Part shown: piece by piece, positions 31,417 to 43,054 of the stretch | Layout: every line of letters begins with the position of its first letter | Position numbering within the stretch: position 1 is the stretch's first letter | NCBI RefSeq assembly: GCF_017255015.1 | Contig: NZ_JAFKCS010000001.1 | Span: 182,772 to 246,771 of the forward strand | Direction of reading: 5' to 3' | Source: Bowmanella yangjiangensis | GTDB lineage: Bacteria; Pseudomonadota; Gammaproteobacteria; Enterobacterales; Alteromonadaceae | DNA: 64,000 bases | The notes under the pieces: generated by a model | What the model saw: only the letters and a program-made list of their open reading frames with translations | Databases searched by the model: none | Told to the model about the DNA's origin: nothing | Made by a program: the position numbers and the translations under genes

Positions 31417-31442
31417 ACTAGAAGGTTATAACGCCTTCTAGT
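31417..31442 (-). terminator. Hairpin overlapping the stop of the last operon gene
   Basis: ACTAGAAGG and CCTTCTAGT form a 9-bp stem around TTATAACG and include the TAG stop of the gene ending at 31438. It may act with the 31346 stem to end the ten-gene transcript. No U-run. Confidence 0.4.
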
Positions 31443-32298
31443 GCTTGGCTTTCCAGCGTTTGATTTCGTTATCCAAACCTTGTTTGGATTTCTCTACTGC
31501 CTGCATGGGGGTTAGGTTATCAGGGTATTCCTCTTGCTCTACCACTAACCAATGGGTGCCACCTACCTCAATATTGGCGCTTAGCAGGGATTGCCAGTCG
31601 ATACCGTCCTGACCAATCAGGACCTTTTTGCCTTTGTCGCTGTCTCGCAACTTGGCTTTGTAGTGCGTGGTTAGCGTACGACCAGGGTAGGCGCGCACAT
31701 ACTCAGCCGGGTTGTAACCGGCAAAATAGCTCCAGCCTACATCCTGCTGTAGCACTAAATCATCTGGTGTATTAGCAGCGATATAGTCCCATAAGGTTTT
31801 GCTGCCGTGTCCACCCGTAGAGAACTCCTGGGCATGGTTGTGATAGCCAAAATGCAGGCCGTAGGCACTGACCAGGGGATAGAAGGCATTGAGATCGGCT
31901 ACGGTTTGCTTAACGGTTTCAGCTGCGAAGGCCCGTTCGTCCCAGGGTACAATCAAGGTAGGGCAGTTCAGCGCCTGATAAAAAGCCAGGGTGCGATAAC
32001 GATTGGCTTCGTTTAAGGCGTCAAAGCCAATGTGTGCGCCGGAGCAGGCCAAACCCAGTTCATCCATCCTGGCCTTAAGGGCTGCCGGTTTTTCAGCATA
32101 AGGGCCAAAGTTTCCGGCAAATTCCACGCCATCAAAGCCCATGGCAGCCAGTTTGCTTAGGGTGTCGTCAATATCACTTTTAATATCATCCTTAACCGAC
32201 CACAGCTGCACGCTGATCTTGGGCAGTTCTGTTGCCGCCTGAGCTGCGGTAAAAGGGAGAAGGCATAAAAGCGCACTCATCAATGGACGAATTTTCAT
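31438..32298 (-). CDS. Secreted xylose-isomerase-like TIM barrel protein (1)
   Basis: 286 residues from the ATG at 32298, which has an AAAGGAA site; the upstream extension to 32355 overlaps the previous gene and is unlikely. A signal peptide (MKIRPLMSALLCLLPFTAAQA) precedes an AP-endonuclease-2/xylose-isomerase barrel (KISVQLWSVKDDIKSDIDDTL, FDGVEFAGNFG, YHNHAQEFS, LQQDVGWSYFAG, VEQEEYP). The His and acidic residues at the barrel rim could bind a divalent metal. Such periplasmic barrels act as sugar isomerases, epimerases or 3-keto-glycoside lyases. Last gene of the ten-gene operon. Confidence 0.83.
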   Translation of the reverse strand: MKIRPLMSALLCLLPFTAAQAATELPKISVQLWSVKDDIKSDIDDTLSKLAAMGFDGVEFAGNFGPYAEKPAALKARMDELGLACSGAHIGFDALNEANRYRTLAFYQALNCPTLIVPWDERAFAAETVKQTVADLNAFYPLVSAYGLHFGYHNHAQEFSTGGHGSKTLWDYIAANTPDDLVLQQDVGWSYFAGYNPAEYVRAYPGRTLTTHYKAKLRDSDKGKKVLIGQDGIDWQSLLSANIEVGGTHWLVVEQEEYPDNLTPMQAVEKSKQGLDNEIKRWKAKH

Positions 32299-32320
32299 AT
32301 TGTTTCCTTTGCACTTGGCG

Positions 32321-34045
32321 CTACAAGCGCCCGGATTTAACTTGGTCAATGGCATAGTGTGCCGCTCTGGCAGTCAATGCCATAAAGGTCAGGGTGGGAT
32401 TAACCACCCCGGATGAACAAAAACTGGCTCCGTCGGTGACAAACAGGTTGGGTACATCATGAGCCTGATTGTATTTATTCAACACCGACTGTTTAGGGTC
32501 GTTACCCATGCGGGCGGTACCCACTTCGTGAATGGCCAGACCTGGCGGTGCGGTGGTGGCCTGTGAACGGATAGACTCGAAACCGGCAGTCGCTAGCATC
32601 TTATGCATAGTTTCGGCGGCATGCTGCATCATGCTCAGCTCGTTATCCGACCATTTGCAGTTAAAGTGCAATTGCGGAATGCCCCACTTATCTTTTTTAC
32701 TGGGGTGCAGACCCACTTGGTTATCCGCTTGCGGCAGCATCTCGCCCTGCGCACCCATCCATATTTGCCAGGGACCTGCCTGGGTCAAACGCTGTTTAAA
32801 GTCAGCGCCAAAACCATCTTGCTGACTCATACCTTGCCAACTGCCGCGAGTAGCTCCACCGGCTATGGCATAACCACGCTTAAAGTCCTTATGATAACGG
32901 GACGGCTCGAAATGCGAATTGGGGATGTAAATGCCGGTAGGTCGACGACCCCGGTAATATTCATCCTCGTAACCTGGAATACGGGCTGAGGCCCAGGCAT
33001 TGTAATTGTGATCCATCAGGTAACGCCCCAGTACGCCGGATGAATTGGCCAAGCCGTTGGGGAAGCGCTTGCTGGTGGAATTCAGCAGCACCTGTGTGGA
33101 GCCTAAAGTGGATGCACACAAGAACACTATCTTGCCGCGATATTCGCGTTGGCTGAGATTGTCATTGTCGACTACCCGCACACCGGTCACCCGCTGTTTG
33201 GCATCATCGTAAATCAGACTATGTACCACGCTGTTGGGGGCGATATGTAAATTGCCGGTGCGGGCTGCGGCGGGCAGGGTGGCACTCTGGGTGGAAAAAT
33301 AGGCACCGAAAGAACAGCCACGATAGCATTCGCTGCGCGCCTGGCAGGTAACCCGACCAAGCTCCAACTGGATTTTACTGGGCTGGGTTAAGTGAGCACA
33401 GCGCCCCACCACCATAGGTTTATCTGGAAAATGCTCAGCCAGACTGGTCTGAAAATCCAGCTCAGGTTTAGTTAATTCAAAGGCCGGTTGGGCAATGCTG
33501 TCTGGCAATTGCGGCAGATTATCCTGAGCCGCGGAAATACCGGCAAATGTTTCCACATAGTCATACCAGGGGGCCAGATCCTGATAGCGGATAGGCCAGT
33601 CGATACCCTGGTTATCTTTGGCATTGGCAGTGAAATCATACTCACTGAATCTGAAAGTCTGGCGTGCCCAAAGCAGCGACTTGCCGCCCAATTGATTAGC
33701 GCGGATCCAACTGAAGCTGGTACCTGGCTCCGTGCTGTAGGGCAGGTCACGATCATTGCCGAAAAAGTGCTTGCTGGTGTCATTAAAGGCATAACACTGT
33801 TTTTGAATAGCCTGGGTTTGGTCTACCAGCAAGTTTTCCGCCACGGTGCGGGTCGGGTATTCCCAGGGACCTTTGCCCTCGGTGGTATAGTCTTTTCGGT
33901 GTTCAACTAACCTGCCACGTTCAATAAGCAGGGTTTTAAAACCGGCCTCGCAGAATTCTTTGGCGGCCCAGCCACCGGTCACCCCAGAGCCGACAATCAG
34001 AACGTCAAACTCATCATCAGTGCTTTGCACAATATTCTCTTGCAT
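32321..34045 (-). CDS. GMC-family FAD-dependent dehydrogenase (1)
   Basis: 574 residues. An FAD-binding Rossmann motif (DVLIVGSGVTGGWAAKEF, then LLIERGR) begins at about residue 14. The C-terminal catalytic region has HEVGTARMG with the proton-accepting His and SSGVVNPTLTFMALTARAA with the second conserved Asn/His position. A Cys motif, C-x5-C-x3-C (CQARSECYRGC), matches the iron-sulfur ligands of Burkholderia FAD glucose dehydrogenase. There is no signal peptide, so it is probably exported with the Tat-tagged subunit 3 encoded 15 nt upstream. It likely oxidises a sugar or glycoside hydroxyl and passes electrons to a carrier. Confidence 0.88.
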   Translation of the reverse strand: MQENIVQSTDDEFDVLIVGSGVTGGWAAKEFCEAGFKTLLIERGRLVEHRKDYTTEGKGPWEYPTRTVAENLLVDQTQAIQKQCYAFNDTSKHFFGNDRDLPYSTEPGTSFSWIRANQLGGKSLLWARQTFRFSEYDFTANAKDNQGIDWPIRYQDLAPWYDYVETFAGISAAQDNLPQLPDSIAQPAFELTKPELDFQTSLAEHFPDKPMVVGRCAHLTQPSKIQLELGRVTCQARSECYRGCSFGAYFSTQSATLPAAARTGNLHIAPNSVVHSLIYDDAKQRVTGVRVVDNDNLSQREYRGKIVFLCASTLGSTQVLLNSTSKRFPNGLANSSGVLGRYLMDHNYNAWASARIPGYEDEYYRGRRPTGIYIPNSHFEPSRYHKDFKRGYAIAGGATRGSWQGMSQQDGFGADFKQRLTQAGPWQIWMGAQGEMLPQADNQVGLHPSKKDKWGIPQLHFNCKWSDNELSMMQHAAETMHKMLATAGFESIRSQATTAPPGLAIHEVGTARMGNDPKQSVLNKYNQAHDVPNLFVTDGASFCSSGVVNPTLTFMALTARAAHYAIDQVKSGRL

Positions 34046-34060
34046 CTGTTAAGCCTTCAC

Positions 34061-34669
34061 TTAAAACGGGTAACCGCCACTGTATGCTTTACCCACCGAT
34101 GCATAAGGCACCGAGCCTTTAAAACCGCCGGGAACCGGGTCATAAGCAAGCAGTTGTGTCATACCTACCTTGCTGGTGAAAAAGCCGAATACCACAAGGG
34201 CTTTAAGCATTTTAAACGCCTTGGTATCAGCTTGAGTAAAAGGGTCTTCAGTTGCTTCAAGTGCGGTTAACAAAGCAAGTTGCCCAGCTTGCTCGCCCTG
34301 ATAAAAGGCCTTGCCCCACTGGCCCAGCGCCACTGTATCTATTTTGTTAAGAATCACCGTGGCAACAGCTTGTTCATCGCTGTCAAAGCAATGCTTGAGC
34401 TGATTGTCTACAAACCAATGGCAGTCTGTTTCCAAGGCTCCAGGTGTATCTGTCTGCGGAATAATAAGGTCAGCCATGCTGGCTAAGGTTTTAAGCTGTC
34501 TTTCACTTAACAGTTGTAATTGTCGCAGCGCGCTGTCCTGCTGAAACGCCATGGCAACGGATAAGCCTGAACCACCCACTAACTGACTGGCAAACTGAGC
34601 CCCAAGTACAACACCTAAGCCTTTAAGCAGGCTCCGTCTGTTGAGGATGACATTGTTTTGAGTCGTCAT
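34061..34669 (-). CDS. Gluconate 2-dehydrogenase subunit 3-family Tat protein (1)
   Basis: 202 residues. The N-terminus has a twin-arginine export motif (NRRSLLKGLGVVLGAQF), followed by the family core (LKTLASMADLIIPQTDTPGALE and QLLAYDPVPGGFKGSVPY). Subunit 3 proteins of FAD dehydrogenases chaperone and carry the GMC subunit through the Tat pathway. Its stop is 15 nt before the GMC(1) start codon and its start overlaps the DUF1080 stop by 4 nt. Confidence 0.87.
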   Translation of the reverse strand: MTTQNNVILNRRSLLKGLGVVLGAQFASQLVGGSGLSVAMAFQQDSALRQLQLLSERQLKTLASMADLIIPQTDTPGALETDCHWFVDNQLKHCFDSDEQAVATVILNKIDTVALGQWGKAFYQGEQAGQLALLTALEATEDPFTQADTKAFKMLKALVVFGFFTSKVGMTQLLAYDPVPGGFKGSVPYASVGKAYSGGYPF

Positions 34670-35418
34670 AATGGTCTTGCCCAGATATTACGAAAACTAA
34701 CCAGGTTGCCATGATCCTGAAGTTGAATAGGGGCACAGCCATGGGCGGTGTAACTGGGCTCACCCAGCCATACGGTATCACCCTGGATCTCGGTGTGATT
34801 CTGCACCAGCACGCCATTATGCAGCACGGTAATAAACCCCGGTTGGGTCAGTTTGTCACCCTCGAAACGCGGGGCTTCAAAAATGATGTCATAGCTTTGC
34901 CATTGCCCCGGCTCACGCATAGCATTTACCAGCGGTATGGCTTGTTTATACAGTGACCCTGCCTGGCCATTGCTATAGGTGCGATTGTCGAATGAATCGA
35001 GAATCTGAATTTCGTAGCGCTGCTGCAGAAATACTCCGCTGTTATTACGCTGTTGCCCCTGCATATCCGGCTTAGGCTCAGGAACGCGCCATTCCAGATG
35101 CAACTGCACGTCACAAAATTCTGCTTTGCTGCGAATATCGCCGCTGCCTGGGGCGACGGTCATTACCCCGTCGGTCAGTTGCCAAGGTGCCTCGCCGCCT
35201 TTAACACTTAGCCACTGGCTAAGAGAATCGCCACCGAACAACACCACTGCATCTGATGGTGGGGCATTTAATGGTGCACTGACTACCTTTGGCACAGGCT
35301 CCCATACTTCGGTTTTTTGCGCCTGCTGTTCACGGTCGTCCTGGGCCATGGCAGTCTGTCCGACTATCAAGAGGAAGGCGGTGGCACTTAATACTTTGTT
35401 TCTGGTGTGCATAATCAT
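34666..35418 (-). CDS. Secreted DUF1080 (3-keto-disaccharide hydrolase-like) protein
   Basis: 250 residues. A signal peptide (residues 1-25, ending AMAQ) precedes a DUF1080 concanavalin-like beta sandwich: VVLFGGDSLSQWLS, FCDVQLHLEWRVPEP, NNSGVFLQQRYEIQILDSF, PGQWQSYDIIFEAPRF, VSFRNIWARPL. Known DUF1080 proteins include enzymes that cleave 3-keto glycosides. It is likely periplasmic. Its place between the two subunit 3 genes fits a route in which GMC enzymes make a 3-keto glycoside and this protein cleaves it; this is inference. Confidence 0.85.
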   Translation of the reverse strand: MIMHTRNKVLSATAFLLIVGQTAMAQDDREQQAQKTEVWEPVPKVVSAPLNAPPSDAVVLFGGDSLSQWLSVKGGEAPWQLTDGVMTVAPGSGDIRSKAEFCDVQLHLEWRVPEPKPDMQGQQRNNSGVFLQQRYEIQILDSFDNRTYSNGQAGSLYKQAIPLVNAMREPGQWQSYDIIFEAPRFEGDKLTQPGFITVLHNGVLVQNHTEIQGDTVWLGEPSYTAHGCAPIQLQDHGNLVSFRNIWARPL

Positions 35419-35440
35419 TTACTCGGCTATTTAGCGGATA

Positions 35441-36046
35441 TTAGGTTGCCCAGGCTTTGTCGCCTTTTTTATAGGGAAATTCGCCATCATAACGGCCAGG
35501 TACCGCCACATAGCGCAATACCTGAGTGGCGCCTGGTTTGGAGGTGAAGAAACCAAACAAGGTCAGCTGTTTAAATAAGGTGAAGTAGTGGGGCAGCACT
35601 TTATCTTCGTCTGGTGTACCGCCGGGACGGCCTAATTCCCAGTGCCGCACCTTATTCTGCTTGTTATAGCGGTAGGCTTCATCATTCAATTCAGTTAACA
35701 GACTGTGCTTGTGCTTTTGTTCAAGCAGCAAAAAGGGTTTGCTAAATTGGCTGAGCGCTGCCTCGTTAAGCTTCTGCATACCTTGTCTGAACAAGGCTTG
35801 CTCGCTAGGTAAGTAGCAATCACTGACCAGACGGGTCATCAACTGGCCAATATTAGCGTCTTTCGCTCCCGGGCTGTCGGTACGAGGAATAATGGTCTCG
35901 GCTACCTCGTTTAACAGCAGCACGTCATCAGCGCTAAAACCTGTGCCAAGCCGTTGAGCTGACTCAGCCGCCAGGGCCAGCGGATTACCGATAAAAGCGG
36001 CGCCGGTCGCGGCCGCAATCATTTTAAGCAGTTCACGTCTTTCCAT
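35441..36046 (-). CDS. Gluconate 2-dehydrogenase subunit 3-family Tat protein (2)
   Basis: 201 residues from the ATG at 36046. The start shares one base with the GMC(2) stop (TAATG). The N-terminus is short and twin-arginine-like (MERRELLKMIAAATGAAFIG), then the family core (NEVAETIIPRTDSPGAKDANI, YFTLFKQLTLFGFFTSKPGATQVLRY). It is a paralog of the other subunit 3 gene and should pair with the GMC(2) enzyme for Tat export. Confidence 0.87.
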   Translation of the reverse strand: MERRELLKMIAAATGAAFIGNPLALAAESAQRLGTGFSADDVLLLNEVAETIIPRTDSPGAKDANIGQLMTRLVSDCYLPSEQALFRQGMQKLNEAALSQFSKPFLLLEQKHKHSLLTELNDEAYRYNKQNKVRHWELGRPGGTPDEDKVLPHYFTLFKQLTLFGFFTSKPGATQVLRYVAVPGRYDGEFPYKKGDKAWAT

Positions 36047-37731
36047 TACAGATTTCCTCGCTTGAGTTCCTCTACAGCAAAGGCGGCAGCTCTGGCGGTC
36101 AAGGCCATATAGGTCAGGGATGGATTGACGCAAGACGCCGAGGTCATACAGGCGCCATCAGTGACAAACACATTAGGCGCATCCCACACTTGATTGTGCT
36201 TATTCAGTACCGAGCTTTTTGCATCCCGGCCCATTCTGGCGGTACCCATTTCATGAATACCCATGCCAGGCGCATAGTCGCTATCATAGCCTTTAACGTT
36301 TTTAAGTCCTGCTGCCTCAAACATTTCCATGGCATCGGCCTGCATGTCTTTGCGCATCGCCAACTCGTTTTGTTTGATTTCCACGTTCATAACCAGTACC
36401 GGCAAACCCCATTTATCCTTAACCTGATGATTCAGGTAAATGCGGTTGTCGTGATAGGGTAGGATCTCGCCAAAAGCCGACATGCCGATACTCCAGTGCC
36501 CCGGCTCACTCAACCCGGCTTTTAGCTCGGCGCCAATGCCCATCTCACGAATGTCTTTCTGCCAGCCCTGACGACTGGCACTGCCCTGATACCCGAAGCC
36601 GCGCAGATAGTCGCGCTTATCCTTGTGCCAGTTACGGTAGCGGGGAATGTAAAAACCGGCCGGGCGACGACCGAAAGTATACTTGTCTAAATAGCCTTCC
36701 ACATCGGCAGAAGCGCCCACCCTGAAATGGTGATCCATAACATTGTGACCCAGCTCGCCACTACTGCTGCCAAGACCGCCTTCCCAGACATCGGTGGCCG
36801 AGTTCATCAACAGCCAGGTGCTGTTAAAGGCTGAGGCATTCAGGAATACCAATTTGCTTTTATATTCAATAACCTGGTTGGTCTGTGCATCTATGACTTC
36901 GACGCCAGTGGCGCGCTTTTTATCTTTGTCATACAGCACTCTTGAGACGACTGAAAAGGGTCTTAAGGTCAGATTGCCGGTTTTAAGCGCGGCTGGCAGC
37001 GTGGCCGACTGGGTGCTGAAATAGCCACCAAAGGGGCAGCCCAGCCAGCACTTGGCGCGGTACTGGCAGTTAGTGCGGCCTTGTTCTGGCTTTGGTTCGG
37101 TAATGTTGGCACAACGGGAATGAATTAGGTGCCGGGTGCCGGCAAAGGCCTTTTTAATCCGCGCCGCCACGTCTTTTTCCACACAATTTAGTGGAATGGG
37201 TGGTTGAAACTGCCCGTCCGGCAGCACATCCAGCCCCTCTCGGCTGCCACTGATACCGGCGAAACGTTCCACATAATCATACCAGGGGGCCAGATCTTCG
37301 TAGCGGATGGGCCAGTCTACGGCGATACCTTCCTGAGCATTGGCAAGAAAATCCTGTTCATTAAATCGGTAGCTTTGTCTGCCCCACAGCAAGGAGCGCC
37401 CACCCACATGATAGCCACGGTACCAGTCGAATCGCTTGTCCTCGGTATAGGGAGCCTCTTTCTCATTGGCCCACATGCCGAAGGTGGATTCATTCAGCGG
37501 ATAATCACGACGCAGCACCGGATAATCCAGTTTCATTTGTTGGGTGGGTACATCGTGATGGGGATAATCCCAGGCTTCTTTGTGGGCATTTTTGTAGTCT
37601 TTGATGTGCTCGATATTTCTGCCGCGTTCCAGCATCAGCACTTTCAGACCCCGTTCACTCAGCTCTTTGGCGGCCCACCCGCCACTAATACCTGAGCCAA
37701 CAACTATTGCATCATATTCATTTACTGACAT
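36046..37731 (-). CDS. GMC-family FAD-dependent dehydrogenase (2)
   Basis: 561 residues, a paralog of GMC(1). FAD motif (AIVVGSGISGGWAAKELSERG, about 8-28 in parts), HEMGTARMGRD with the catalytic His, and SASCVNPSLTYMALTARAA. The same C-x5-C-x3-C motif is present (CQYRAKCWLGC). No signal peptide. Two complete GMC/subunit 3 pairs in one operon suggest two different substrates or positions. No cytochrome c subunit is encoded in the operon. Confidence 0.88.
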   Translation of the reverse strand: MSVNEYDAIVVGSGISGGWAAKELSERGLKVLMLERGRNIEHIKDYKNAHKEAWDYPHHDVPTQQMKLDYPVLRRDYPLNESTFGMWANEKEAPYTEDKRFDWYRGYHVGGRSLLWGRQSYRFNEQDFLANAQEGIAVDWPIRYEDLAPWYDYVERFAGISGSREGLDVLPDGQFQPPIPLNCVEKDVAARIKKAFAGTRHLIHSRCANITEPKPEQGRTNCQYRAKCWLGCPFGGYFSTQSATLPAALKTGNLTLRPFSVVSRVLYDKDKKRATGVEVIDAQTNQVIEYKSKLVFLNASAFNSTWLLMNSATDVWEGGLGSSSGELGHNVMDHHFRVGASADVEGYLDKYTFGRRPAGFYIPRYRNWHKDKRDYLRGFGYQGSASRQGWQKDIREMGIGAELKAGLSEPGHWSIGMSAFGEILPYHDNRIYLNHQVKDKWGLPVLVMNVEIKQNELAMRKDMQADAMEMFEAAGLKNVKGYDSDYAPGMGIHEMGTARMGRDAKSSVLNKHNQVWDAPNVFVTDGACMTSASCVNPSLTYMALTARAAAFAVEELKRGNL

Positions 37732-37784
37732 GCTCTTCCCCTAAAGGTGCGGGTTCGGTTGCCCGCATGCTGCACTACACCCAC

Positions 37785-38666
37785 CTATACGTCACAAATG
37801 GCAATGGCCTGTTGCAGGGAGGTAATTTTGCCGTCCATGCTGGGTGGGGTTGGAATAAACTCCTGAGCCAGGTAACCTTTAAAACCGGTGGCATAAATTG
37901 CCTTAGCAATGGCCCGGTAGTTGAGCTCCTGGCTGTCATCAATCTCATGTCGTCCGGGCACACCAGCGGTGTGGTAGTGACCGAAGTACTGATGGTTGTC
38001 ACGAATGGTGCGAATTACATCACCTTCGTTAATTTGCATATGGTAAATGTCATACAGCAGTTTAAAGTGCTCGCTGCCCAAGGCTTTGCAAAGCGCAATG
38101 CCCCAGGCCGAATTGTCAGCCATATAATCAGGGTGATCGACTTTGCTGTTGAACAGTTCCATTTGCAGCACCACCCCACGTTCTTGCGCGTGTGGCAGAA
38201 TCTGTTTCAGACCGGTTACGGCATTGGCAAGCCCAATGTCCAGACGCATGCCCCTTTTGTTGCCGCTAAAGCAGATGAGATTGGTGTAGCCCGCATCAGC
38301 CACCAGGTCGATATGCTTGATGTAGCGGGGGATTAGCTGGGCGTGAAACGCCGTGTCGCACCAGCCATCGGTGAGATTGAGCTCGGCACCGTTGCACATA
38401 GATGAGTCTATGCCAAAGCGCTTTAGTACCGGCCAGTCTTGTGGCCCGACTAAATCGATGGCGGAAAAGCCTAAGGCTTTGACTAGCTTGCACAGCTCCT
38501 CAATACTCAAGTCGCCATAGGTCCAGCGACTAACTGAATGGCGAATGTTACCTTTCAGTGTCGCAGTGCTGCTTTGGTTTACCGCGGCCAGCAGTGGCGA
38601 TGATAGCGCGCTTAAACCACCAGCCAGCGCCATGTGCTTGAATAGCTGACGACGACTATTATTCAT
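37785..38666 (-). CDS. Tat-exported xylose-isomerase/hydroxypyruvate-isomerase-like TIM barrel (2)
   Basis: 293 residues. The N-terminus SRRQLFKHMALAGGLSALSS has a twin-arginine motif. The barrel resembles the hydroxypyruvate isomerase family (FSAIDLVGPQDWPVLKRFGI, YTNLICFSGNKRG, VVLQMELFNSKVDHPDY, FKLLYDIYHMQINEGDVIR, FGHYHTAGVPGRHEIDD, GYLAQEFIPT), with the conserved Glu, Asp-His, His and Glu metal ligands visible. A periplasmic sugar isomerase, epimerase or lyase. It overlaps the MFS gene by 8 nt; a 53-nt gap with a small hairpin separates it from GMC(2). Confidence 0.85.
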   Translation of the reverse strand: MNNSRRQLFKHMALAGGLSALSSPLLAAVNQSSTATLKGNIRHSVSRWTYGDLSIEELCKLVKALGFSAIDLVGPQDWPVLKRFGIDSSMCNGAELNLTDGWCDTAFHAQLIPRYIKHIDLVADAGYTNLICFSGNKRGMRLDIGLANAVTGLKQILPHAQERGVVLQMELFNSKVDHPDYMADNSAWGIALCKALGSEHFKLLYDIYHMQINEGDVIRTIRDNHQYFGHYHTAGVPGRHEIDDSQELNYRAIAKAIYATGFKGYLAQEFIPTPPSMDGKITSLQQAIAICDV

Positions 38667-39894
38667 GGTTGGTTACTTGTTCGTTTTTGAAACTGAACAG
38701 GAACAGCACAAAGATTAACGCTGCAAAGCCTGCTGGGTATAGCCAGATTTGCTGCCAATCGTGACCGCCCTGCTCGGCAAAGCGGTCGGTGATTTGTCCG
38801 GCAACCCAGAACCCAACTAACATACCAACACCGTAAGTGGCTAGGGTGATCAGGCCTTGGGCGGCGCTTTTGGTGCGGTCGCTGGCCTTGGCATTGGTAT
38901 AAATCTGCCCTGACACAAAGAAGAAGTCATAGCAGATACCATGCAGGGCTATACCTACCAGCAACATAGCCATGGCGCTGCCAGCATCGCCGTAGGCAAA
39001 CAGCACATAACGCAACACCCACGCAGCCATGCCCACCAGTAAGGTCAGCTTTAAGCCAAAGCGCTGCAAAAACACCGGGAGTGCCAGCATAAACAGCACC
39101 TCTGAAACCTGCCCGAGGGTCATCTTGCCGGTGGCATTTTCCACGCCGATTTCGGTTAGAAAGGGGTTGGCATTTTGATAGTAAAAGGCCAGAGGAATGC
39201 AGATAAGTACTGAGGAAATGAAGAACAGTAGAAAGTTACGGTCTTTAAGCAGCGCTAAGGCGTCTAAGCCTAACATCTGCCCCAGACCGCTTTGTTCGTT
39301 ACCGGATTGCTTGGCGGATTTGGGCGGTGTGGCAGGCAGGCTAAAGCTGAACAAGCCTAGCAGCAAAGACGCCGCAGCGCAGAGGGCGAAGGTGTTTTTC
39401 AGCATGCCATCGGCAATAGCGGCCTTGGCATCCCAGGAAAACACATAACTAATCACCAGACCAGCCAGGATCCAGCCGATAGTACCCCATACCCGAATCT
39501 TGCCAAACTCCTTGGCGGGTTCCTGCATTTGCCCGAAAGATACCGAGTTGACCAGCGCCAGAGTAGGCATATAGGCAATCATATAGGCGAGTACATAAGG
39601 GTAGAAGCTGGCAAAATCCGTAGCGGTATACAGACAATACATCAGCACCGCGCCAAGCAGATGCAGCACCCCGAGTATACGTTCGGCATTAAAATAACGG
39701 TCGGCAATCAGGCCGATAATAAAAGGCGCAATAATGGCACCCCAGGACTGGGTGGCAAATGCCATGCCGATTTCACTGCCGCTGGCGCCTAAATTGTTAC
39801 CCAGAAAGGTGCCCAGAGTGACAAACCAGCCACCCCAGATAAAAAACTGCAGAAACATCATCAGGCACAGTTGGAATCGAATACCTGCTTTCAT
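38659..39894 (-). CDS. MFS nucleoside/sugar:H+ symporter, NupG-like
   Basis: The frame opens at 39966, but the ATG at 39894 (MKAGIRFQLCLMMFLQFFIWGGWFV) starts at the usual place for this family, giving 411 aa. Twelve membrane helices are visible. The N-terminal QFFIWGGWFVTLGTFL and the GSEIGMAFATQSWGAIIAPFIIGLIADRYFNAERIL segment are typical of NupG/XapB-like symporters, a group also found in sugar-catabolic clusters. It probably imports the sugar released in the periplasm. Confidence 0.87.
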   Translation of the reverse strand: MKAGIRFQLCLMMFLQFFIWGGWFVTLGTFLGNNLGASGSEIGMAFATQSWGAIIAPFIIGLIADRYFNAERILGVLHLLGAVLMYCLYTATDFASFYPYVLAYMIAYMPTLALVNSVSFGQMQEPAKEFGKIRVWGTIGWILAGLVISYVFSWDAKAAIADGMLKNTFALCAAASLLLGLFSFSLPATPPKSAKQSGNEQSGLGQMLGLDALALLKDRNFLLFFISSVLICIPLAFYYQNANPFLTEIGVENATGKMTLGQVSEVLFMLALPVFLQRFGLKLTLLVGMAAWVLRYVLFAYGDAGSAMAMLLVGIALHGICYDFFFVSGQIYTNAKASDRTKSAAQGLITLATYGVGMLVGFWVAGQITDRFAEQGGHDWQQIWLYPAGFAALIFVLFLFSFKNEQVTNHE

Positions 39895-39904
39895 GGTCAG
39901 CTCC

Positions 39905-40957
39905 CTATAAACCCAGGATTTTACGGTTGAGTGCATGGTCAGTACCGCTGGCAGCAAAGTCGTCAAAAGCTTTGTCTGTGGTGCGAATCAGATGGCGGCG
40001 AATAAATTCAGCCCCTTCCCGGGCACCGTCTTCGGGGTGTTTAATGCAACATTCCCATTCAAGAACGGCCCAGCCCTGATAACCATATTGAGTTAACTTA
40101 CTGAAAATCTGGCCGAAATCAATTTGACCGTCGCCCAGGGAACGGAACCGACCAGGGCGTTCCAGCCAGCCTTGGTAACCACCATAGACACCGCTACGGC
40201 CGTTTTTATTGAACTCGGCATCTTTGACATGAAAGGCTTTGATGCGCTCATGATAGATATCAATAAAGGCCAGATAATCCAGATGCTGTAATACAAAGTG
40301 GCTGGGGTCATACAGGATATTCGCCGCCGGGTGCTCATTGGTGGCTTGCAAGAAGCGTTCAAAGGTGACGCCGTCATGCAGATCTTCCCCTGGATGCAGC
40401 TCATAACAGATATCCACCCCTTGTTCGGCAAATTTATCCAGGATTGGCAGCCAGCGTTTGGCCAGTTCTTCAAAACCTTGCTCCACCAAACCGGCCGGAC
40501 GTTGTGGCCAGGGGTAGTGCGTGTGCCAAAGCAATGCGCCGGAAAAACTGGCGTGGGCGGTCAGTTTCATTCTGGCACTGGCCGTGGCAGCGGCCAGCAA
40601 CTGCTGTTTTGCCCACTCAGTGCGGGCGCCTGGGTTGCCTTTTACTGCATCCGGGGCGAAGCCATCGAACATTTGGTCGTAGGCCGGGTGTACGGCTACC
40701 AATTGGCCTTGCAGGTGAGTCGACAATTCGGTAATGGTCAGGCCATGACTGGTAGCGATGCCAAGGATATCATCACAATAATCCTGGCTGCTGGCGGCCA
40801 GTTCCAAATCAAATAAGCGCTTTTCCCAGGTTGGCAACTGTATACCTTGGTATCCCAGTCCCGCTGCCCATTGACAAATGCTGTCGAAACTATTGAAGGG
40901 GGCCGAATCTGAGGCAAATTGTGCCAGGAAAATGGCCGGGCCTTTGATATTGTTCAT
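39905..40957 (-). CDS. Xylose-isomerase-like TIM barrel sugar isomerase/epimerase (3)
   Basis: 350 residues without a signal peptide, so cytosolic. Family stretches: GLGYQGIQLPTWEKRLFDL, ELSTHLQGQLVAVHPAYD, VDICYELHPGEDLHDG, NILYDPSHFVLQHLDY, IKAFHVKDAEFNKNG and GWAVLEWECCIKHPEDG, with Glu, Asp-x-x-His, His and Glu ligands for a divalent metal. It likely works on the imported sugar with the Gfo/Idh enzyme whose stop overlaps its start by 4 nt. Confidence 0.87.
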   Translation of the reverse strand: MNNIKGPAIFLAQFASDSAPFNSFDSICQWAAGLGYQGIQLPTWEKRLFDLELAASSQDYCDDILGIATSHGLTITELSTHLQGQLVAVHPAYDQMFDGFAPDAVKGNPGARTEWAKQQLLAAATASARMKLTAHASFSGALLWHTHYPWPQRPAGLVEQGFEELAKRWLPILDKFAEQGVDICYELHPGEDLHDGVTFERFLQATNEHPAANILYDPSHFVLQHLDYLAFIDIYHERIKAFHVKDAEFNKNGRSGVYGGYQGWLERPGRFRSLGDGQIDFGQIFSKLTQYGYQGWAVLEWECCIKHPEDGAREGAEFIRRHLIRTTDKAFDDFAASGTDHALNRKILGL

Positions 40958-42126
40958 GCTTGGCCTCCTTGACCTGATAACTCGCTAACATTGGGCACTT
41001 TGTGCCATTTTTGCTCACTGTTACTTGCGGTTACCACTGTCTCGATAAAGGCCATACCGCGCAGTGCTTCACTGATACCAGGTAGCAATGAATGGATATC
41101 CTGATGTTGCTGGCGTGCCTGATGTACCTGCTCGGCGAACTGGCAATACAAATTGGCAAAGGCTTCTAAGTAACCTTCCGGGTGACCTGGCGGGGTGCGG
41201 GTAATACCGCCTAATGCGGCAGCACTAGGGGTGGCAGCGCGCAGCGTTTCAAAGGGTTTATCGGCATGCATCAGCTTGAGGCTGTTGGGCGATTCCTGCG
41301 ACCAGTCTAATGAGGCTTTTTCACCATACACCCGAATGCGCAGGTTGTTTTCCTCGCCCACTGCGATCTGACTGGCACTGAGCATTCCTCTGGCACCACC
41401 CGCAAAGCGCAGCATCACCACGCCATCATCGTCTAACTGGCGATTGCCACTGGCACTAATGTCGGCACTGAGTTCGGCAATATGATCATCACAGATAAAT
41501 TCGGCCAGATTTGCCGCATGCACACCAATATCCGCCATACAACAACTGCTACCCGCCTGCGCCGGGTCCAATCGCCAGGCCGCCTGTTTACCACTGTCGC
41601 CGCTTGGGTCAGCAAGCCAGCCCTGATGATATTCCACTGCCACTTTGCGGATCTTGCCAAGCTGGCCACTGACAACCAATTGTCTGGCGGCGACCACCAT
41701 GGGATAGCCAGTGTAAGTATGGGTAAGGGCATACAATCGGCCACTTTGTTGCTGTATGTCGGCAAGCTGCTTCGCTTCCGTTAAATTGAGGGTGGCTGGC
41801 TTGTCGCACAGTACGTGGAAGCCAGCTTGCAGAGCTTGCCTGGCGACATCAAAGTGCAAATGGTTGGGCGTGACGATGGCAACAAACTCCATCCGTTGTT
41901 CCGCGGGTAAGCGCGCTTCGGCGTCGAACATGGCTTGATAGCTTGCGTAACAACGCTGCGCATCAATACCCAACTGGCTGCTCATTTGTTGGGATTTGGC
42001 CGGGTCGCGGCTGAAGGCGCCACAGACTAACTGGATTTTTCCGTCCAGATTGGCGGCCATGCGATGTACTGCACCAATAAAGGCGTCGGGGCCACCCCCA
42101 ACCATTCCCATTCTGACTTTTTGCAT
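40954..42126 (-). CDS. Gfo/Idh/MocA-family NAD(P)-dependent oxidoreductase
   Basis: 390 residues. The N-terminal Rossmann fold has GMVGGGPDAFIGAVHRMAA, and the family motif CDKPATLNLTEAKQLAD has the catalytic-site Lys. The C-terminal domain holds the substrate pocket (MADIGVHAANLAEFICDDHI with conserved Asp and His). Members interconvert sugar hydroxyl and keto groups. As first gene of the operon and cytosolic, it could reduce the imported 3-keto sugar or oxidise a free sugar. Confidence 0.9.
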   Translation of the reverse strand: MQKVRMGMVGGGPDAFIGAVHRMAANLDGKIQLVCGAFSRDPAKSQQMSSQLGIDAQRCYASYQAMFDAEARLPAEQRMEFVAIVTPNHLHFDVARQALQAGFHVLCDKPATLNLTEAKQLADIQQQSGRLYALTHTYTGYPMVVAARQLVVSGQLGKIRKVAVEYHQGWLADPSGDSGKQAAWRLDPAQAGSSCCMADIGVHAANLAEFICDDHIAELSADISASGNRQLDDDGVVMLRFAGGARGMLSASQIAVGEENNLRIRVYGEKASLDWSQESPNSLKLMHADKPFETLRAATPSAAALGGITRTPPGHPEGYLEAFANLYCQFAEQVHQARQQHQDIHSLLPGISEALRGMAFIETVVTASNSEQKWHKVPNVSELSGQGGQA

Positions 42127-42310
42127 TTGTTACTGGCCTGAAAAAAGGGCTGTTAACAGAATGTTATCTCTACAGTCTTACGGATAAATAGAATAGAATC
42201 GGTTGCTTGTAGCATAAAATCGGCGCGTTCTTTTTTGGTGCATTGCCGGAATTATGAGTTTTTATCGGTTAAGTTCTTTTAAATCAAATTTTTAGGTTTA
42301 GGTGTTGGCA

Positions 42311-43054
42311 ATGTCGCTATTTTCATTACCAGAACAATCCAATGCATTTTTGCAATCCATGCCAGCCGCACAATGGCTGAAAATGTATGACTTGTTAACC
42401 GATGTTTTGGTGTGGGTCAAAGATAGCAATAGCCGAATTCAATATGCCAACCGGGCTTTTTTGGAACATACCGGCTTAGGTGCGTTAGAGCTGGCCTTGG
42501 GTAAAACCGATGATGATTTCGCGCCGCGTCATATAGCCCGCCAGTTTCTTGCTGACGACCAGAAGGTGCTGGAAGGGGAAATGATTAATGACAGGTTGGA
42601 AATGAATGTGCTGCGCAGCGGTGAACTGCATTGGTTTACTACCAGCAAAAGGGCGCTGTTTGATTTTGACGGGCACCGGGTAGGCACCTGCGGTATCTCC
42701 CGCCATTTGCACAAAACCTCAATTATGCTGGGTCCGCTGGCCAGCATTGAAAAGCCGCTGGAGCATATTCGCCGCAATTTTACCCAGCCTATTCCCATCA
42801 ATGCTCTGGCCGACCTTTGCCATGTGTCGGTCAGTGCGCTGGAGCGGCGTTTTCGCAAAGCGCTGGGCAAAACGCCTAAGCAATTGATTAACCAGCTTCG
42901 TCTGGACAATGCGCGGCGCTTGCTGGTAGAGACGGATTTACCTGTGTATCTGGTCGCAGAGCAGTGCGGTTTTAGTGATGCCAATTACTTCAGTCGTCAG
43001 TTTCTGGCCGAGTATGCCGAATCCCCCAGCAGTTTTCGTCAGGGGTTTCGATAA
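42311..43054 (+). CDS. PAS-AraC family transcriptional regulator
   Basis: 247 residues from the ATG at 42311, which has AGGTG about 6 nt upstream; the GTG at 42302 is an alternative. An N-terminal PAS domain (DVLVWVKDSNSRIQYANRAFLEHTGL, then LHWFTTSKRALFDFDGHRVGTCGISR) is joined to a C-terminal AraC HTH pair (INALADLCHVSVSALERRFRKALGKTPKQL and YLVAEQCGFSDANYFSRQF). It is divergent from the ten-gene catabolic operon, 184 nt apart, so it is the likely regulator. Its ligand may be a sugar-derived metabolite. Confidence 0.87.
   Translation: MSLFSLPEQSNAFLQSMPAAQWLKMYDLLTDVLVWVKDSNSRIQYANRAFLEHTGLGALELALGKTDDDFAPRHIARQFLADDQKVLEGEMINDRLEMNVLRSGELHWFTTSKRALFDFDGHRVGTCGISRHLHKTSIMLGPLASIEKPLEHIRRNFTQPIPINALADLCHVSVSALERRFRKALGKTPKQLINQLRLDNARRLLVETDLPVYLVAEQCGFSDANYFSRQFLAEYAESPSSFRQGFR

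Follow-up and report, generated by a model that had tools for sequence, protein, structure and literature searches.

A ten-gene operon and a divergent regulator in Bowmanella yangjiangensis very probably encode a periplasm-to-cytosol route of glycoside cleavage, proceeding by oxidation, elimination (or cleavage by a PF06439 protein), hydration, and reduction, and represent an evolutionary fusion of two modules. The genes lie in a 64,000-nucleotide stretch of contig NZ_JAFKCS010000001.1 (positions 182,772 to 246,771), hereafter called the window, whose own numbering is used throughout. The reading draws on sequences, conserved residues, predicted folds, gene order, and phylogeny; from these we infer all activities, export, an alpha/beta division of labor, the transport step, and the substrate. 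The genes, with the short names used below, are as follows.

42302..43054, plus strand: REG, divergent PAS and AraC-type regulator (Pfam HTH_18/HTH_AraC/PAS_4).
40954..42126, minus strand: GFO, Gfo/Idh/MocA oxidoreductase, predicted cytosolic 3-keto-glucose reductase (Pfam, tree).
39905..40957, minus strand: HYD, cytosolic TIM barrel, predicted 2-hydroxy-3-keto-glucal hydratase (8ro4 match, tree).
38659..39894 (mechanical start 39966), minus strand: MFS, Nuc_H_symport-family transporter, predicted importer of the cleaved keto-sugar (Pfam, junction, tree).
37785..38666, minus strand: TIMtat, AP_endonuc_2 barrel, predicted periplasmic 3-keto-glycoside epimerase (Pfam, fold match to 6wn6 YcjR, invariant residues).
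36046..37731, minus strand: GMC1, FAD-GO/GlycDH-type predicted glycoside 3-dehydrogenase, catalytic His493 (Pfam, FAD-GO motif).
35441..36046 (mechanical start 36133), minus strand: S3a, gluconate 2-dehydrogenase subunit 3 family, predicted GMC1 export partner (PF13618, junction).
34666..35418, minus strand: DUF1080 (PF06439), 3-keto-disaccharide hydrolase family (PF06439 profile, 4qhz).
34061..34669, minus strand: S3b, second gluconate 2-dehydrogenase subunit 3 protein, predicted GMC2 partner (PF13618, adjoins GMC2-type genes across loci).
32321..34045, minus strand: GMC2, second GMC dehydrogenase, of a clade distinct from GMC1 (Pfam, tree, motifs).
31438..32298 (mechanical start 32355), minus strand: OGE, secreted TIM barrel, predicted 3-keto-beta-glycoside 1,2-lyase or beta-eliminase (fold matches, conserved residues).

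The ten open reading frames (ORFs) are read on the minus strand, starting at 42126 and ending at 31438, with further mechanically called ORFs overlapping them. Where neighbors do not overlap, the gap never exceeds 53 bp, as judged from ORF coordinates and from reading the junctions, and the genes probably form one operon that would be cotranscribed. Probable starts differ from the mechanical ones for MFS (ATG near 39894), S3a (ATG at 36046), and OGE (ATG at 32298). In gene order the Pfam families are GFO_IDH_MocA, AP_endonuc_2, Nuc_H_symport/MFS, AP_endonuc_2, GMC, Gluconate_2-dh3, PF06439 (3keto-disac_hyd, the former DUF1080), Gluconate_2-dh3, GMC, and AP_endonuc_2. A preliminary description made from the sequence alone had given the same ten genes, order, and coordinates, which the ORF list and Pfam confirm, and had held that a classical glycoside hydrolase is dispensable; Pfam finds no such family among the ten proteins. 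Its operon of ten genes stands, and the divergent PAS-AraC regulator that it overlooked belongs to the unit and is likely the controller of the operon. The same order recurs in four other genomes (loci L014, L015, L110, and L111), which argues that the arrangement is not due to chance. Signal peptides, assigned by eye, are of the twin-arginine translocation (Tat) type in TIMtat, S3a, and S3b and of the Sec type in DUF1080 and OGE; none was seen in GMC1, GMC2, HYD, or GFO. Promoter and terminator scans came out close to the shuffled-sequence level (14 versus 12.1 and 18 versus 15.3).

Several of the proteins are linked to characterized enzymes of 3-keto-glycoside metabolism, in support of the pathway type that the preliminary description had proposed. 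Residues 1 to 350 of HYD align to residues 1 to 349 of Protein Data Bank (PDB) entry 8ro4, titled "2-hydroxy-3-keto-glucal hydratase" (E value of 4e-178, 595 bits), and by this match HYD likely hydrates 2-hydroxy-3-keto-glucal. The earlier suggestion that the cytosolic barrel and the Gfo/Idh protein act as finishing enzymes is thereby sharpened, the barrel being a likely hydratase. The nearest solved chain to GFO is 3v5n, "Oxidoreductase" (E value of 1.9e-99), and MFS matches Pfam Nuc_H_symport (E value of 9.5e-122).

OGE residues H153, H155, D186, H212, and E254 align to the identical residues H132, H134, D163, H189, and E233 of AtOGE, although overall identity to the AtOGE stretch used is 25%. 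In the portions of PMC10628242 that treat these residues, H132, D163, and H189 are metal ligands, E233 is weakly coordinating, and H134 is catalytic. The metal and catalytic columns are invariant in all 31 aligned rows. The AlphaFold model of OGE has a predicted local distance difference test (pLDDT) score of 93.4; its fold matches at ranks 1 to 3 are the 3-keto-beta-glucopyranoside-1,2-lyases BT1 and AL1 (8tct and 8tcd), with AtOGE (8bvk) at rank 7. From residues and fold, OGE is likely a 3-keto-beta-glycoside 1,2-lyase, or beta-eliminase. Its counterparts in B. pacifica, B. denitrificans, and B. dokdonensis share 95%, 87%, and 71% identity with it, respectively. The DUF1080 protein matches PF06439 at 139.5 bits against a gathering cutoff of 26.8 (E value of 1.7e-40), and its closest structure is PDB 4qhz, "putative glycosyl hydrolase" (E value of 8.3e-96 with the family profile). 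Proteins 48% (OGE) and 50% (DUF1080) identical to those of the window also occur on a contig titled as an Akkermansia muciniphila metagenome-assembled genome (MAG; L076), which is possibly misbinned.

TIMtat finds its top fold match in the Escherichia coli 3-keto-D-glucoside 4-epimerase YcjR (6wn6), with a query TM-score (TMq) of 0.69 and 17 to 18% identity over the structural alignment; TIMtat differs from YcjR in bearing a Tat-type signal. Residues E170, D206, H232, and E269 are invariant in 22 rows, and they may be metal residues of the epimerase type, on the basis of an alignment to psicose epimerases and of known metal sites. For TIMtat, epimerization is a likelier role than cleavage. Both exported barrels had been proposed to cleave or isomerize the 3-keto compound; this holds for the secreted barrel as a likely beta-lyase, while the Tat barrel fits isomerization better than cleavage.

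The two GMC proteins, 46% identical to each other, are candidates for the oxidation step. GMC1 carries the motif APGMGIHEMGTAR, identical to the FAD-GO motif as it can be read from the mutagenesis primers in PMC4650693, with a His at residue 493 in the position seen in FAD-GO. Its C terminus, ELKRGNL, resembles the ELKAGNL of Stenotrophomonas enzymes in the same source, and its stop codon overlaps the S3a start as TAATG, by our reading of the junction. An overlap of this kind with a downstream Tat partner is described, within the FAD-GO subfamily, for Agrobacterium tumefaciens C58 and Stenotrophomonas maltophilia GIN612 (PMC4650693, relevant part). GMC1 thus shows both marks of a FAD-GO/GlycDH enzyme, the His493 motif and a Tat partner directly downstream whose start overlaps its stop. 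Within its clade (clade A), APGMGIHEMGT is exact in 7 of 26 rows and HExG[TS] is present in 25. GMC2, unlike that subfamily, has PPGLAIHEVGTAR in place of the full motif, keeping only the core (IHEVGTAR) with the catalytic His, and its partner S3b lies upstream, the reverse of the GMC1-S3a order. HExG and NPxLT are retained in all 38 rows of the GMC2 clade. Pfam matches to PF13618 have E values of 3.1e-32 for S3a and 2.8e-29 for S3b.

Taken together, these assignments suggest the following route. GMC1-S3a and GMC2-S3b would be exported folded by way of the partners' Tat signals and would oxidize the C3 hydroxyl of glycosides in the periplasm. OGE would then beta-eliminate beta-linked 3-keto-glycosides to a leaving group and a 2-hydroxy-3-keto-glycal, and the PF06439 protein might cleave 3-keto-glycosides beyond the reach of OGE, most likely alpha-linked ones. 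TIMtat may epimerize the 3-keto-sugar, perhaps at C4. After import of the keto-sugar by MFS, HYD would hydrate the glycal to 3-keto-glucose, which GFO would reduce to glucose. We assign beta-linked substrates to OGE and alpha-linked ones to PF06439 because AtOGE, on the pair described in PMC10628242, cleaves beta 3'-keto-cellobiose and not alpha 3'-keto-maltose, and because 3-ketotrehalose hydrolysis is the activity described for BT2157, a PF06439 protein (PMC9007349, in the part that concerns it).

The dehydrogenase-OGE-HYD-Gfo pathway has been published before, while the architecture of the operon seems to be new. In the A. tumefaciens GlycDH-OGE-HYD-Gfo operon, as far as the relevant sections of PMC10628242 describe it, dehydrogenase, OGE, HYD, and Gfo reductase act in a chain, for which the methods include a one-pot conversion setup and the hydratase evidence is called preliminary. 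That operon shares with ours a flavin adenine dinucleotide (FAD)-dependent GMC dehydrogenase with a Tat partner, a metal-dependent eliminase barrel, a hydratase barrel, and a Gfo reductase, and the same chemistry would be expected. Bowmanella adds a second GMC pair, a PF06439 protein, a Tat epimerase-like barrel, and MFS, and its eliminase is only 25% identical. The Caulobacter lac cluster (LacABC, DUF1080, a transporter, two epimerases, and a reductase), compared here by description and not by sequence, has a parts list near that of the GMC1 module with GFO, HYD, and MFS; its lactose 3-dehydrogenase LacABC requires three components (PMC9007349, cluster description). Unlike that cluster, Bowmanella has two GMC pairs and a PAS-AraC regulator. 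It also lacks a third dehydrogenase component, which in LacABC we take to be a cytochrome c. In Bacteroides and Alistipes, the lyases BT1 and AL1 (so named in their PDB titles) are closest to the predicted OGE fold, and PF06439 is also found in Bacteroides (BT2157). The glycoside 3-dehydrogenase there is of the Gfo type (NCBIfam name BT_2158_fam), as opposed to the FAD GMC pairs of Bowmanella; it is presumably part of the gut pathway of 3-keto-type glycoside cleavage reportedly described by Nasseri et al. in 2024.

The second half of our proposal, that two modules fused, comes from comparing loci across the family. GMC1 was searched in 147 family genomes, of which 60 gave a match at an E value of 1e-100, at 94 places; 80 regions were fetched and joined to earlier regions and the window. 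Because the set was drawn with GMC1, cassette C (see below) is undersampled. Two GMC fragments (G132 and G106) were left out. Loci span about 8 to 10 kb on either side, so more distant genes are missed. Identity thresholds were set after the identities had been seen (at least 70% for the GMC1 clade, about 58% or more for GMC2, at least 40% for OGE and DUF1080, and others). A second set, the named loci, comprises the best 80 of 233 found by OGE; its OGE counts are therefore biased, some of its loci stop at contig ends, and its species overlap with the unnamed set, so that the two are not independent. GMC and HYD trees were quick trees with support from the Shimodaira-Hasegawa-like approximate likelihood ratio test (SH-aLRT) only.

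In a tree of 92 GMC proteins, the GMC1 clade (26 rows) and the GMC2 clade (38 rows) each have SH-aLRT support of 100, and the two keep different company. The 20 nonmerged GMC1-clade loci carry DUF1080 (18 of 20), TIMtat (16 of 20), and a LacI gene (13 of 20); none has the PAS-AraC regulator or OGE at 40% or more, and 13 have an AtOGE-like barrel of their own. In the 33 nonmerged GMC2-clade loci, OGE at 40% or more is present in 23, relatives of the PAS-AraC regulator in 22, and HYD in 19, while GMC1-type DUF1080 and TIMtat are absent and another DUF1080 type occurs in 5. Among the 49 genomes with either clade, 15 have GMC1 only (B. dokdonensis among them), 24 have GMC2 only, 5 have both in one locus, and 5 have both apart.

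In the family loci, both dehydrogenases share a locus only in a single Bowmanella/Lacimicrobium lineage. The merged ten-gene order is found in the window's genome and in G001, G002, G112, and G139 (the last two of the same genus), and among the best 80 of 233 named loci only in B. pacifica, B. denitrificans, and Lacimicrobium alkaliphilum. Whether in the trees of HYD, GFO, and MFS or inside each GMC clade, the merged rows group together as a single clade; merged HYD (support of 99) and GFO (100/98) group with GMC2-type loci, and MFS falls among GMC1-type loci with weaker support. The operon looks like a fusion in which a GMC2 operon (REG / GFO-HYD-S3b-GMC2-OGE) has taken up a GMC1 cassette (MFS-TIMtat-GMC1-S3a-DUF1080) between its HYD and S3b genes. 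The simplest history is one insertion that left out two genes of the GMC1 module, its LacI gene and its AtOGE-like barrel, after which both dehydrogenases would share one regulator, eliminase, hydratase, and reductase. A search of six lineage genomes for the GMC1-module barrel found only OGE, with one match each at an E value of 0.001 or better; a genome-level AtOGE blast at a stricter E value had failed to pick up the barrels in some of the merged loci, although another search showed them.

B. dokdonensis (G004, locus L016; also L025) has DUF1080 directly adjoining OGE (L016:9065-10855), without S3b and GMC2. Its genome has a single GMC match at an E value of 1e-100, and the rest of the operon is kept. 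Apparently S3b and GMC2 were lost in this species while OGE was retained, an indication that OGE works with GMC1 as well. G003, of the same genus as the Bowmanella set, has no match to the three queries searched there, namely DUF1080, GMC1 (at an E value of 1e-100), and the barrel.

Several observations weigh against this picture, in one or another of its parts. The TIMtat model is mediocre (mean pLDDT of 73.7), and its fold matches fall within a narrow range of E values, with ketose 3-epimerases close behind YcjR. No CxxCH heme c motif is present in the ten proteins or the regulator, and the operon encodes no other electron acceptor; one Sphingomonas cytochrome used as a query gave no match in the window's genome, an uninformative result that leaves room for a cytochrome elsewhere. 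A strict alpha-only role for PF06439 is strained by its genetic link in Caulobacter to 3'-ketolactose and lactose, a beta-galactoside (PMC9007349, in the section on lactose). In 10 of the 38 GMC2-clade rows, OGE at 40% or more is missing from the neighborhood; within 9 kb, six of these have a more distant barrel and the other four have none. Moreover, 17 of the 80 named loci carry OGE with no dehydrogenase of cassettes A, B, or C (defined below) in view. Conversely, OGE at 51 to 52% stands beside a GMC1 module without GMC2 in L051 and L055 (titled Rheinheimera) and in L058 (a gammaproteobacterial MAG). Together with the barrels found in 13 of 20 GMC1 loci, these three Rheinheimera-type loci imply that OGE is not tied to GMC2 and that DUF1080 is not the only cleaving enzyme of the GMC1 module. 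Finally, L018 (G008) combines a GMC1 module with a GFO and HYD that group with GMC2-type loci and with a different MFS. It is a separate exchange between modules, and exchange is thus not unique to the merged clade.

We had considered a strict pairing of GMC1 with DUF1080 and of GMC2 with OGE. It was rejected on the GMC1 loci with their own barrel, the three Rheinheimera-type loci, B. dokdonensis with OGE but without GMC2, and the 13 of 80 OGE-scan loci in which cassette C accompanies OGE without GMC2.

It is unlikely that GMC2 is no glycoside C3 oxidizer but acts at another position, or on free sugars or polyols, as a recruit beside a normal GMC1 pathway. The incomplete FAD-GO motif, the separate clade, and the 46% identity to GMC1 would suit such a role, and the nearest solved chains to GMC1 itself are fructose and glucose dehydrogenases; neither a characterized GMC2-clade member, nor other biochemistry of the clade, nor a paper on this operon was found in the open-access literature, in which the clade was not searched by name. 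GMC2-clade genes, however, stand beside a 3-keto-lyase-type barrel in 23 and beside HYD in 19 of the 33 nonmerged loci, a setting that best fits C3 oxidation upstream, and HExG and NPxLT are kept in all 38 rows of the clade. We see a minor but appreciable chance that the two dehydrogenases are redundant on one substrate and that the fusion is an accident of dosage or regulation. B. dokdonensis, which manages with one GMC match and keeps the rest, points that way, as does the breadth in glycone and aglycone reported for FAD-GO enzymes (PMC4650693, substrate passages). Against redundancy, the two clades hold largely separate partner sets across the family, and five of six merged-lineage genomes keep both dehydrogenases.

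That the ten-gene form is ancestral, with the separate GMC1 and GMC2 operons arising by loss, appears quite improbable. Both clades do occur at separate places in 5 of the 49 genomes, but the merged form is a single clade in the trees made, well-supported splits (99 and 100/98) place its HYD and GFO with the GMC2 type, and nonmerged GMC1 loci have their own LacI gene and AtOGE-like barrel in 13 of 20 cases each. The IolE-like barrels and the Gfo/Idh protein could also recall a cyclitol (inositol-type) catabolic operon, and NCBIfam does give weak matches to myo_inos_iolE and myo_inos_iolG. PF06439 is not known to take part in inositol catabolism, and the NCBIfam scores are far under their cutoffs (73.2 of 290 bits, 49.1 of 290, and 68 of 355); set against the 595-bit match of HYD to the hydratase, they led us to reject an explanation that is hardly credible. 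Fusion of two glycoside-oxidizing modules remains our preferred explanation.

The comparison also brought out a third arrangement. Next to cassette A (TIMtat-GMC1-S3a-DUF1080) and cassette B (S3b-GMC2), a cassette C (DUF1080-GMC-S3) lies apart on contig C223 of the window's genome (L021:11422-14577). Its PF06439 protein is 25% and its GMC protein 34% identical to those of the window, and its subunit 3 protein has a Tat-type signal and, by eye, resembles a lipoprotein. Cassette C follows a GMC2 operon in 5 of 86 family loci (a table that omits L020, which has DUF1080 without GMC1). Among the 13 named loci with both cassette C and OGE, 12 also have REG, GFO, and HYD, and 12 are titled Pseudoalteromonas. 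In family loci DUF1080 is present with A in 19 of 21, with A plus B in 4 of 4, with B plus C in 5 of 5, with C in 1 of 1, and with B alone in 0 of 28; in named loci the counts are 4 of 4 (A), 3 of 3 (A plus B), 13 of 13 (C), and 0 of 23 (B). All three cassettes are missing from 27 of the 86 family loci and from 37 of the 80 named ones. We tentatively propose, as a possibility somewhat short of even, that a fixed chassis (REG, GFO, HYD, and OGE) takes at least three plug-in dehydrogenase cassettes, with Bowmanella as a double-cassette form. On the same tentative footing, GMC2 could represent a new class of glycoside 3-dehydrogenases, as its first member to be described, and both anomers and both C4 epimers might be handled under one regulator.

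Cleaving glycosides by way of 3-keto intermediates has only recently emerged as an alternative to glycoside hydrolases, and it raises the question of which dehydrogenases belong with which lyases and hydrolases. A ready comparison set is offered by the natural fusion, by relatives in which cassettes are swapped, and by B. dokdonensis with its apparent loss of GMC2-S3b. From these comparisons we would expect OGE to work for more than one dehydrogenase, only some substrates to require PF06439 and the Tat barrel, and GMC2 to mark an enzyme class that merits assay.

Beyond the family, DUF1080 was found at an E value of 1e-50 in 3 of 368 other genomes of the wider class, and the merged form was absent from these regions. 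Parts of the set, but not the whole, occur in the plasmid regions L104 (Parabacteroides), L105 (Rhizobium), and L106 (Alteromonas). The GMC1 module or something akin to it is present on plasmids L102, L103, and L109 (Xanthomonas sacchari, Palleronia, and Sphingomonas); L102 and L109 include an annotated cytochrome c gene, which the Bowmanella operon does not have. Neighboring ORFs were also given to Pfam (91 of 142 from the 20 GMC1 loci and 81 of 195 from the 33 GMC2 loci, with the first 25 of 81 and of 76 families tabulated). The tabulated families gave no clear pointer to the substrate, being scattered GH43, sulfatase, TonB-receptor, and tryptophan-halogenase genes, with one GH1 in the first member. 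For the substrates that the preliminary description had guessed at, a marine polysaccharide fragment or a plant glycoside, the analysis yields support neither for nor against. Near GMC2-type loci such as L164 and L185, 6 of the 81 scanned ORFs belong to the tryptophan-halogenase family and four match TonB receptors.

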